Part shown: one piece after another, positions 15,068 through 20,039 of the stretch
How the letters are laid out: the number at the start of each line of letters is the position of its first letter
Position numbering within the stretch: the stretch's first letter is position 1
Assembly: GCA_002069125.1 (NCBI GenBank)
Contig: MVZN01000023.1
Location: forward strand, 1-40,344
Length of the DNA: 40,344 nucleotides
Direction: 5' to 3'
Source of the DNA: Spirochaetes bacterium ADurb.BinA120
GTDB lineage: Bacteria; Spirochaetota; UBA4802; UBA5368
Notes under the pieces: generated by a model
Told to the model about the DNA's origin: nothing
The model's database searches: none
The model's input: only the letters and a program-made list of their open reading frames with translations
Made by a program: the position numbers and the translations under genes

Positions 15068-15141
15068 GGGCGATTAGCTCAGTCGGTTAGAGCGCCTGCC
15101 TCACATGCAGGAGGTCACTGGTTCGAGTCCAGTATCGCCCA
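15068..15141 (+). tRNA. tRNA-Val (anticodon CAC)
   Basis: A full cloverleaf is visible. The acceptor stem is GGGCGAT (15068-15074) with ATCGCCC (15134-15140), and the discriminator is A at 15141. The D-arm contains TAGCTCAGTCGGTTAGAGC. The anticodon stem CCTGC/GCAGG (15095-15099, 15107-15111) encloses the loop CTCACAT, giving anticodon CAC (15102-15104), which reads the valine codon GUG. The T-arm has GGTTCGAGTCC. The CCA end is not encoded. No integrase or attachment-site duplication is seen downstream. Confidence 0.96.
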
Positions 15142-15174
15142 CAGCCCCGTCTCCGGCAGCATTCCAGGGAAAAC

Positions 15175-16623: not shown

Positions 16624-17790
16624 CTATCGAATGAGCTCGCTCACCCCGTCCCCTATCGCGCACTCGAGCACCCCGGGCGGTGCTCCGTACTCCTCTTGAA
16701 ACTTAAGGGCGATCTCCGCGGCGAACCGCCCCGCGGACGGCGCGTCGACCATGGTGACGGTGCAGCCGCCGAAACCGCCGCCCATCATTCGTGACCCGTA
16801 CGCTCCCTCCACACCGCCCGCCCACTCTACGAGGCGGTCCATTTGGTCGATGCTTACCTCAAAATCGTCTCGCAGGCTCGCGTGGGAGGCATAAAGAAGC
16901 TCACCTGCAGCGGAAAAGTCGCCGGAGCGCATCCGGCGTAAAAATTCAAGCGTGCGGGCGTTTTCGGTAATCGCGTGGCGCGCGCGCCTTAGCTCCAGCG
17001 GCGGAAGAGAGGGCCCGAGCGGCATGAAATCGACGGGCGACAGGTCGCACAGATGATCGATCTTCGCGCCCAATCCTCTTAGAAGCGCGAGGGCCGACTC
17101 GCATTCCATTCTCCGGTCGTTGTAGCCGGACTCGCGAAGGGAATGCCGGACGCCGCTGTTCACCAGGACGAAACGCACCCTGGAGGGATCGATGTAAAGA
17201 TACTCATATGACAGGTCGCGCGTATCGAGGAGAATCGCGCTGTCCTTCCTGCCATGAATGACGGCAAACTGGTCCATAATTCCGCATGCGACCCCCGCGT
17301 ACTCCCTTTCCACCCTCTGCCCCATCCGCGCAAGCTCGATTCCGTCGAGCTCCATGCCGAGCGTTTTTGCCATTGCGAAAAGCGTTACGGTGGTGATTGC
17401 CGCCGAGCTCGACACCCCGGCGCCGACGGGGATTGTGCTCAGATAGCTGAGGTCGAATCCCCGGTCCCAGTCGGCGCGAAGCGCCGCCAGTGCGCCGGCT
17501 GGATAAAGCCACACCCTCGGCACCTCTATGCCTTCGCGGAAAAGCGACAGCGGAAGCTCCCCCGAGTCTTGGAATCCCGCGTCATGGAACCGGAAGAGCC
17601 CGGAGGCATTTTCGGAAACGCACAGGTATACGGCCCTGTCGATTGCCGCCGGAAACACATGGCCGCCGTTGTAATCAACGTGCTCTCCGATGAGATTGAT
17701 TCTTCCCGGACAGGAAAAGACGCGCGGGTGGGCCGCTCCGGGAAAGGACGAATTATGGGCAGCGACCAGTCTGTCGATATATTCGTTCAT
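16624..17790 (-). CDS. galK: Galactokinase
   Basis: The 388-residue GHMP kinase has the galactokinase N-terminal signature GRINLIGEHVDYNGG at residues 29-43. The ATP loop PVGAGVSSSAA and the GIMDQFAV catalytic-base region follow, with the C-terminal GGGFGGCTVTMV motif. It phosphorylates galactose to galactose-1-phosphate in the first Leloir step. No galT or galE is adjacent. It follows the unrecognised gene 17834-18733 by about 43 bases in the same direction, so the two probably form one transcript under the palindromic operator upstream. Related GHMP kinases acting on N-acetylgalactosamine or heptoses cannot be fully excluded, but the signature favours galactose. Confidence 0.92.
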   Translation of the reverse strand: MNEYIDRLVAAHNSSFPGAAHPRVFSCPGRINLIGEHVDYNGGHVFPAAIDRAVYLCVSENASGLFRFHDAGFQDSGELPLSLFREGIEVPRVWLYPAGALAALRADWDRGFDLSYLSTIPVGAGVSSSAAITTVTLFAMAKTLGMELDGIELARMGQRVEREYAGVACGIMDQFAVIHGRKDSAILLDTRDLSYEYLYIDPSRVRFVLVNSGVRHSLRESGYNDRRMECESALALLRGLGAKIDHLCDLSPVDFMPLGPSLPPLELRRARHAITENARTLEFLRRMRSGDFSAAGELLYASHASLRDDFEVSIDQMDRLVEWAGGVEGAYGSRMMGGGFGGCTVTMVDAPSAGRFAAEIALKFQEEYGAPPGVLECAIGDGVSELIR

Positions 17791-17833: not shown

Positions 17834-18733
17834 TCAGGCGCGCTGGAGGTGTTTTAGAAAGGACTTCCCCCGCTCGGTGGCGTTTATGCGGACCGCGTCG
17901 CCGTCGTCCGATTCGGCGTATTCGACAAGTCCGAAGTGAGCAAACCAGGTAAACAGGTAAAAATCCAGAAACGAGATGAGGAAAACGTCGTTCCGCGCCC
18001 CGAAACCCGTCAGGTCGAAAAACTCGGCCGCGACGGAATCGAGGTTGAATACGCCGTCCTGCCGGAGTAAAAGATCTACCAGTATATGGCGATTGCGCCG
18101 GAGCTCGCGCGCCGCGGACGGGTTTGACGGGAAGATGTCCTCCCAGCGCACCTTGCCCCAGAAGGAGCCGAACAGGGCCGTAAAAACGCCGCCCGCCATG
18201 CAATCCGGGGAGGGAACGGCGGCCCCGCCGTCCACGTCGATCATTCCAGCGGCTTTCATCATTACGACACACTGCTTGATATATATCTCTAAAAGCTCCG
18301 AATCGCCGGCGTCGCCCAAGAGCTCTGTCCGGGCCGCGCTCTCCGTGCATCCGTCGTAAAATTCCTGGCTAAGGCGGCTTCCTCCGACCACATTCGCCCC
18401 GCCGTTTCTGAGCATGGAGACTATAAACCTGCAAAGGCGGGCGGCGAAACAGTTTTCCAGTCCGCGTCCGGGGACCGAATCGTCGAAGCGAGCGAGCGTA
18501 TGGGCGAACCCGCCGGTGCGGGAACGCAGGTCCCCCGTCCACGCGTGCTCGAAGCTCCGATCCACCACAACCGACAACAGCACCGATTTCTCGGCGCGCG
18601 GAAGATCGAGAAACATCCTGTCTATTTCCTTTGCTATCCTGTCGCGGGAATAATCCATTGAAACGACCTGTTGAACAAGTAAATTAATTTCCTTATCGCG
18701 CTGGTGCCCCGCTTCACCATGGGTATTTTTCAT
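17834..18733 (-). CDS. Unrecognised protein upstream of galK, strongly regulated
   Basis: I do not recognise this 299-residue protein. The listed start is the ATG at 18733. A longer TTG start at 18802 would put the coding region inside the palindromic operator and a shorter ATG at 18658 has a weak ribosome site, so the start is uncertain. There is no signal peptide. The N-terminal third is charged and helical (MDYSRDRIAKEIDRMF). The middle has small Gly-rich stretches and a Cys-containing segment (IKQCVVMMKAAGMIDVDGG). The last 100 residues are richer in aromatic and hydrophobic residues (FLISFLDFYLFTWFAHFGL), probably a buried core because it is followed by charged sequence. It has a near-consensus promoter overlapped by palindromes. 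It probably shares a transcript with galK, but a sugar role is only guilt by association. Confidence 0.7.
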   Translation of the reverse strand: MKNTHGEAGHQRDKEINLLVQQVVSMDYSRDRIAKEIDRMFLDLPRAEKSVLLSVVVDRSFEHAWTGDLRSRTGGFAHTLARFDDSVPGRGLENCFAARLCRFIVSMLRNGGANVVGGSRLSQEFYDGCTESAARTELLGDAGDSELLEIYIKQCVVMMKAAGMIDVDGGAAVPSPDCMAGGVFTALFGSFWGKVRWEDIFPSNPSAARELRRNRHILVDLLLRQDGVFNLDSVAAEFFDLTGFGARNDVFLISFLDFYLFTWFAHFGLVEYAESDDGDAVRINATERGKSFLKHLQRA

Positions 18734-18799
18734 ACCGACGAGATTCTCCCCTCTTTCTATATGCCGTACAGGAAGCGCCAATGGGAACAAAAGCACGGT

Positions 18800-18824
18800 C
18801 AATTAATTTCTGTGAAATTAATTG
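18800..18824. promoter_or_regulatory. 25-bp perfect palindromic operator (CAATTAATTTC-TGT-GAAATTAATTG)
   Basis: Two perfect 11-base arms flank TGT. The palindrome begins where the predicted transcription start of the downstream unknown gene lies. A partial copy, CAATTGAATTAATTT at 18836-18850, sits in the promoter spacer, and AAATTAATTT recurs at 18681-18690 in or near the coding start. The pattern suggests a cooperative repressor. Confidence 0.65.
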
Positions 18825-18829
18825 ATAAT

Positions 18830-18858
18830 CATTTACAATTGAATTAATTTAAAGTCAA
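18830..18858 (-). promoter_or_regulatory. Promoter of the unrecognised gene and galK
   Basis: Leftward TTGACT (18858-18853), 17-base spacer, TAAATG (18835-18830). Transcription would start near 18823, the edge of the 25-base palindrome. Confidence 0.55.
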
Positions 18859-18949
18859 CGATAATTTGAAAAAGACAGCGCGAAAAGAGAAAAAATCACC
18901 GCTCGGACACGGCTCCGACAAGCCCCAAGGTCATCACAAGGGCGTTGCG

Positions 18950-19070
18950 TGTCCATAATAAAAAAATTAATAATAAAACATAATTGATCAGATCACGCCC
19001 TCCGACGCATGTTATGCACAGATATAATCCGGCCTCGGACGGAGTGTGGATAAGAATGTGGATAAAGCCC
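18950..19070. other. DnaA-box cluster beside an AT-rich tract: candidate replication origin or DnaA-controlled site
   Basis: TTATGCACA at 19012-19020 fits the DnaA consensus TTATNCACA. TGTGGATAA at 19045-19053 and again at 19057-19065 are exact reverse complements of the strong box TTATCCACA, 12 bases apart. Immediately to the left is an AT-rich tract (about 18955-18990) suited to unwinding, ending TGATCAGATCAC. All three boxes lie within 54 bases in the 466-base gap 18734-19199, which carries no gene. Against an origin: no dnaA, dnaN or gyrB is nearby, and gene direction does not flip here. Confidence 0.5.
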
Positions 19071-19199
19071 GGCAGGCCGTCCGCTTTGCCTGAAAACGGC
19101 CCGGTGAGTTCAATGTTTCCAGGGTGGGAGGTGATGAGGCGTTCCCATTTTATCGACCATAGGGGTTATATCCAGATCGAAGCAGCCCGGCCTCCGGCA

Positions 19200-20039
19200 C
19201 TACTCGAAGCGCATCGACAGGTCGAAGGCCCTCACCGAGTGCGTGAGCGCCCCGATCGAGATGAAATCGATCGCGAGGTCCGTTATCCCTTTTATTCGCA
19301 TTTCGTCCATGTTTCCCGAAGCCTCTATCTTCGCCCTTCCGGCAACAATTTCGATCGCCTCGCTCATTCGGTCCCTGTCCATGTTGTCTAGCATGATGAT
19401 GTCCGCCCCGGCCTCGGCCGCCTCCCGAGCCCCGGCCGCGTTCGTCACCTCGACCTCCACCTCGAAGCGCGTCCCGTGCATGGCGCGCACGCGCCTTACG
19501 GCCTCGGTGATGCCGCCCGCCGCCCGTATATGGTTGTCCTTTATCATCGCCATGTCGAAGAGCCCCATCCGGTGGTTCGTGCCCCCTCCCGCAGCGACCG
19601 AGTACTTGTCCAAAAGGCGCAGGCCCGGGGCGGTCTTGCGTGTGTCAAGAATCCGTATTTGGGTTCCGGCAAGCAGGGCTACAGCCGAACGGGTGGCGGT
19701 CGCTATGCCCGACATGCGCTGGGCGAAATTCAGAGCCGTGCGCTCGCCGGTGAGCAGCGCCTCAGTCGGCCCCGAGAGCATAAGGGCGGTCTCCCCGCTC
19801 GCTATCGCCTCACCGTCGCTTTTGCGCGCCACCACGCGCACCTCAGGGTTCAGACGCCGGTACACCATGCGAACAACCTCGCCCCCGCAGAAAACCCCGT
19901 CCTCCTTGGCGACCACCCTTGCGGTAGATAGCCCCCCTCCGGAGAAAATGGCTTCGGAGGTAAGGTCGCCGTCGCCTATGTCCTCACGAAGCGCCGCGTC
20001 TATTATGTGCATGATCTCGTGTTCGCCAGGCATTCTCAT
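19200..20039 (-). CDS. nadC: Nicotinate-nucleotide pyrophosphorylase (quinolinate phosphoribosyltransferase)
   Basis: The 279-residue product is the normal NadC length. It shows DGDLTSEA near the start, the [16 protein letters not shown] helix, [25 protein letters not shown] and IKDNHI, and the later EVEVTN and IMLDNM barrel strands. NadC converts quinolinate and PRPP to nicotinate mononucleotide in de novo NAD synthesis. No nadA or nadB is in the window. Its start overlaps the uvrB stop by four bases (ATGA), making it the last gene of metX-metW-uvrB-nadC. Confidence 0.95.

Follow-up and report, generated by a model that had tools for sequence, protein, structure and literature searches.

Conserved DnaA boxes upstream of an order-wide orphan gene in uncultured Spirochaetota: a probable DnaA site outside the replication origin

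What might a tight group of DnaA boxes beside AT-rich DNA be doing when dnaA itself lies on another contig? The group in question is found in a stretch of 40,344 nt (the window), which is the entire contig C23 of the metagenome-assembled genome of an uncultured member of the Spirochaetota (G000; 216 contigs, 3.5 Mb). This placement follows from NadC, whose nearest named relatives belong to Spirochaetota MAGs. The boxes and the genes on either side of them are as follows:

17834-18733, minus strand: orphan protein, 299 aa, winged helix predicted at the C-terminus; order-wide single-copy gene
19012-19020, plus strand: DnaA box TTATGCACA, one mismatch relative to TTATCCACA
19045-19053, minus strand: perfect DnaA box TTATCCACA, position kept within the genus
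19057-19065, minus strand: perfect DnaA box TTATCCACA; the counterpart is TTATCCACA in G001 and TTATTCACA in G002
19200-20039, minus strand: nadC

The starts of the two perfect boxes are 12 bp apart, all three boxes span 54 bp, and an AT-rich tract (88% A+T in 18954-18993) lies 19-60 bp from the first box. The cluster is held in a gene-free gap of 466 bp (18734-19199) flanked by the 299-aa ORF and nadC; since both genes are on the minus strand, the gap lies upstream of the 299-aa ORF. Boxes, tract and gene-free gap are as described in the original prediction, and the accompanying claim that such a cluster would rarely arise by chance was borne out as well. TTWTNCACA occurs four times in the window against 0.79 expected, and neither two perfect boxes within 30 bp nor three TTATNCACA within 54 bp appeared in any of 400 Markov-simulated windows or 20,000 simulated gaps. 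Perfect TTATCCACA is present only 21 times in the whole genome, with clusters at C5, C1 and the window site, and the mismatch-free tandem pair TTATCCACA-N3-TTATCCACA is present twice, at the window site and on C5; a reversed control pattern of the pair has no occurrence in the genome.

The cluster had been put forward as a possible chromosome origin away from dnaA, with cumulative GC skew as the check and a minimum at dnaA as the outcome that would speak against it, and this is the outcome we obtained. Skew at the window site is uniformly negative and does not change sign (-0.055 to the left, -0.059 to the right). On contig C6, which carries dnaA, dnaN and recF, skew flips sharply at dnaA (from about -0.08 to -0.056 before it to +0.09 to +0.095 after it), and the cumulative minimum, at C6:15686, falls inside dnaA. 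Skew minimum and dnaA lie at 42.8 and 42.1 kb in the genus mate G004 and at 183.0 and 181.2 kb in G107. Several DnaA boxes adjoining an AT-rich tract would suit an oriC separate from dnaA, but given the unchanged skew here, the sharp change at dnaA in all three genomes, and the fact that the gap upstream of dnaA has conserved boxes of its own, we regard that reading as scarcely credible. A textbook-looking box cluster with AT-rich DNA thus need not mean an origin. The related element on contig C5 (see below) is more origin-like in appearance than the dnaA gap, and as an oriC candidate it too was rejected, there being no skew flip at G000:C5, G004:C44 or G107:C19. A separate observation is that most of the order genomes examined (L001, L199-L204, L206) have a conserved ATTAATTGGTTGC-AAAAA block some 190 bp ahead of dnaA.

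Conservation of the boxes in close relatives, another check named beforehand, gave a positive answer. Five genomes of the genus, eight of the family and 46 of the order were searchable, and we aligned the DNA upstream of the 299-aa gene in relatives, anchoring the identities on the box pair. At least two boxes are kept upstream of the gene in all five genus genomes. Between G001 and G000 the box pair (21 bp) and the third box (9 bp) are 100% identical, as against 33% identity in the 24 bp between pair and third box and 30% in the 60 bp to the left; for G002 the corresponding values are 90% for the pair, 89% for the third box, 25% between them and 23% to the left. The 12- and 33-bp spacings are exactly kept in both sister species, in G002 even though some 180 bp have been inserted between boxes and gene, and the third box remains TTATGCACA in G001 and is TTATACACA in G002 at the same spacing. 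As judged from these alignments, the pattern is a phylogenetic footprint, and the boxes are under selection because they show 89-100% identity at exact spacing amid DNA that is, over its whole range in the two sister species, 23-38% identical. Conservation becomes looser further out: G003 and G004 retain two boxes, TTATCCACA and TAATCCACA, 23 bp apart, altered in both sequence and spacing; G005, from another genus, has one perfect box upstream of its 299-aa orthologue, adjoining AATTAATTGACT; and no comparable cluster was found upstream of 299-aa homologues in the other families sampled.

Some 280-330 bp separate the boxes from the 299-aa gene downstream, and this intervening DNA holds further features:

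18954-18979, no strand assigned: conserved AT-rich block, TATTATTAATTTTTTTATTATGGACA on the gene strand; in 7 of 7 aligned family genomes, three genera
18830-18858, minus strand: putative promoter of the 299-aa gene, with TTGACT at 18853-18858, a spacer with AAATTAATT, and TAAATG at 18830-18835
18800-18824, no strand assigned: 25-bp palindrome CAATTAATTTCTGTGAAATTAATTG, candidate operator directly downstream of the putative promoter

Within the genus the AT-rich block reaches 96% column identity. Seven of the eight family genomes have a single copy of TTGACTTNAAATTAATTT, in every case ahead of the 299-aa gene, and a similar block precedes most homologues of the gene in the order. A consensus promoter scan of the region did not call the conserved TTGACT block, so this promoter is one that we infer. 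In the genus, the TTGACTTNAAATTAATTT block is followed by the palindrome CAATTAATTTC-N3-GAAATTAATTG, a pattern with two strong sites per genome, one window-type and one C5-type; a perfect 23-bp core is present at two places in G000, G001 and G003, and the C5-type copy carries one to two mismatches in G002 and G004. The putative promoter region carries AATTAATT palindromes, and the overlap of the candidate operator with this putative promoter suggests that the 299-aa gene may be autoregulated.

AATTAATT is found in 36 copies in the genome, six of them at three DnaA-box loci and the remainder mostly at unrelated intergenic sites; at about 20 other intergenic places it stands alone, without DnaA boxes. 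Overlap between AATTAATT and DnaA-box loci exceeds a uniform expectation, though both favour AT-rich gaps, and we place no weight on it. Reading AATTAATT as a replication-only signal would be too strong, with most of the copies at unrelated sites. Multi-copy AATTAATT sites without DnaA boxes are seen between der and a divergent PilZ-like gene (L220:1953-2191) and ahead of fliL-fliM (L221:1920-1991), these genes being named from sequence only; the sites could be further targets of the palindrome-binding protein, motility genes included.

The 299-aa gene is single-copy in 43 of the 46 order genomes sampled, and one marginal match (E = 9.5e-4) was obtained among 347 other Spirochaetota genomes. 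Its product has no sequence relative in Pfam, NCBIfam or PDB: a PDB sequence profile returned a designed repeat protein only, and Pfam and NCBIfam gave no PadR match, the only hit being PF14947 HTH_45 (E = 0.12) with one homologue. The full-length model is of moderate quality (pLDDT 64.7), and the C-terminal 114 residues modelled alone reach 85.5, with the order helix-helix-strand-helix-helix-strand-strand-helix that is typical of winged helices. The nearest folds to this C-terminal model are LmrR/PadR (Z 8.0, rmsd 3.1 over 87 residues, Foldseek E about 0.01), where a Z of about 8 can reflect no more than a commonly seen arrangement; no other fold stood out in these comparisons, which does not speak against others. 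DNA binding by the protein is plausible because its modelled C-terminus is winged-helix-like, with LmrR/PadR nearest at this score; the putative recognition helix is unusually hydrophobic.

The C5 palindrome in G000 adjoins a DnaA-box triplet, TTGTGGATAATGTGGATAAGTTTGTGGATAA. When searched with the core AAATTAATTTAGTAAATTAAT, 15 of the 46 order genomes gave exactly one match each, and at 14 of these, from three families, DnaA boxes lie at about +39, +48 and +60 with near-constant geometry; most C5-type elements have a further distal box at about -192 to -220. These elements (L010:4847-4931, that is G000:C5:43847-43929; L184-L196; L198) thus comprise three boxes and the core AATTAATTTAGTAAATTAAT. 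In the 15th genome, G144, the AAATTAATTTAGTAAATTAAT match is just upstream of the 299-aa gene itself, which at the level of the motif search is an independent link between window-type and C5-type sites. Neighbouring genes of the C5 element are constant in families f1 and f2 and differ in f3. This makes it unlikely as the promoter of one fixed gene, and because of it the element appears, from its comparative pattern, to be kept for itself. The genome G166 has a C5-type element, and a copy of the 299-aa protein was not detected in it.

Taking these results together, we consider that the cluster is probably a site outside the origin where DnaA binds the regulatory region of the 299-aa gene and modulates an autoregulated gene for a DNA-binding protein. 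DnaA would bind the tandem pair and the third box; the palindrome would be bound by another factor, most simply the 299-aa protein itself as autoregulator; and the two together would raise or lower transcription of the gene with DnaA level or replication phase. Less certainly, the 299-aa protein may also bind the related C5 palindrome, making a DnaA/299-aa regulatory pair. The original prediction had included a DnaA-regulated promoter among its options, and this is the best supported of them: conserved boxes upstream of a gene with a strongly conserved promoter region are there, and DnaA binding is what we infer from them. In its favour are the conserved AT block, the promoter-like block and the palindrome, all in front of one order-wide gene, and the sharing of the palindrome with the C5-type DnaA-box element. 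Against it, a distance of about 155-210 bp from the putative -35 is large for a classical regulator; the boxes differ in sequence and spacing in G003 and G004, and no comparable cluster was found in the other families sampled; relatives have the boxes between two divergent genes, of which they could serve the one on the far side; further points against it are the hydrophobic putative recognition helix, the roughly 20 box-free places with AATTAATT and the C5-type element of G166, where the protein was not detected.

The same boxes could instead act as a DnaA-titrating or DnaA-remodelling site that tunes free or ATP-bound DnaA, their position upstream of a gene being incidental. The cluster is among the few groups of perfect boxes in the genome, the C5 sister element keeps its geometry in 14 genomes despite differing f3 neighbours, as would fit a site acting as a site, and in B. 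subtilis deletion of the clusters leads to early initiation (PMC13220808); at the window site, however, there are only three boxes, arranged differently in G003 and G004, and a single order-wide gene has the AT block, the promoter-like block and the palindrome in front of it, so that we find this account rather unlikely here, and more possible for the C5 element. Another explanation looks to the far side of the boxes, where a divergent tocopherol-cyclase-like gene starts just past them in G001, G003 and G004 and nadC stands in the window: the boxes may formerly have regulated that gene and be left over after its loss. We think this improbable, since the window, although missing the gene, has two perfect boxes at unchanged spacing, and since G005, in which the divergent gene is instead an M28-type peptidase (a name given on sequence alone), still has one perfect box. 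AT-rich gaps are in general richer in box-like sequences, which would favour a chance cluster without function; yet the failure of 20,000 simulated gaps to produce it, and its conservation against a diverged background, leave that idea with very little probability.

A non-origin site upstream of a gene, as we favour, would be of a known kind. In B. subtilis, several non-oriC box clusters sit at promoters under activation or repression by DnaA (PMC4447404), and six clusters outside oriC influence initiation (PMC13220808). Like those at sda, ywlC, trmE-noc and others, the window cluster consists of several consensus boxes close together away from the origin; it differs in belonging to another phylum, in its unrelated target gene, and in having only three boxes with a AATTAATT palindrome, binding being predicted. 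Among spirochaetes, Borrelia burgdorferi offers a case in which DnaA binds the dnaX-ebfC 5' region, and the nucleoid-associated protein encoded there takes part in the co-regulation (PMC9879097). This resembles our proposal in that a spirochaete DnaA acts upstream of the gene of a DNA-binding protein, but dnaX-ebfC has one predicted box and a non-consensus site, whereas the window has an unrelated orphan gene and three consensus boxes. The E. coli sites datA, DARS1 and DARS2 are non-origin box clusters that act together with another DNA-binding protein, IHF or Fis (PMC4245941), and the C5-type element, compared by layout only, resembles them in its grouped boxes beside the likely site of another factor.

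The locus gains in interest through having an order-specific protein and a sister element spread across the order. A bolder proposal, which we hold to be speculative, is that this order of uncultured Spirochaetota controls initiation through DnaA and an order-specific winged-helix protein binding AATTAATT palindromes. The two would meet at a conserved non-origin element (boxes at about -218, +39, +48 and +60 around AATTAATTTAGTAAATTAAT), possibly at oriC (with its conserved ATTAATTGGTTGC ahead of dnaA), and at the promoter of the protein itself, through which DnaA would feed back on its partner; such a system would have evolved independently as the equivalent of datA/DARS with IHF/Fis. Detailed knowledge of non-origin DnaA sites that work with a partner protein comes from a few model bacteria only, and according to a review it is not known if B. 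subtilis keeps ATP- and ADP-DnaA in balance at all (PMC13220808). If the circuit were true, an uncultured spirochaete order would possess a regulatory protein and a conserved DnaA element of its own, each sufficiently narrow to be tested with purified proteins and short DNA; the modest reading alone would give a lead to the function of an order-wide orphan gene.

The surroundings of the locus offer some minor observations. Directly downstream of the 299-aa gene, here as in genus mates and in G007, the next gene is:

16624-17790, minus strand: galactokinase-like GHMP kinase

On the other side, nadC directly adjoins the boxes in the window (19066-19199), and in relatives (L013, L134) about 2.8 kb with the tocopherol-cyclase-like and other genes intervenes, which suggests that the lineage of the window species underwent a deletion with one end just short of the boxes. 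Elsewhere in the window, a tRNA-Val (CAC; 15068-15142, plus strand) is just upstream of an EAL-domain gene, and a SAM riboswitch (RF00162; 23931-24031, minus strand) precedes an alpha/beta-hydrolase gene and a MetW gene, the alpha/beta-hydrolase being probably a homoserine acetyltransferase.
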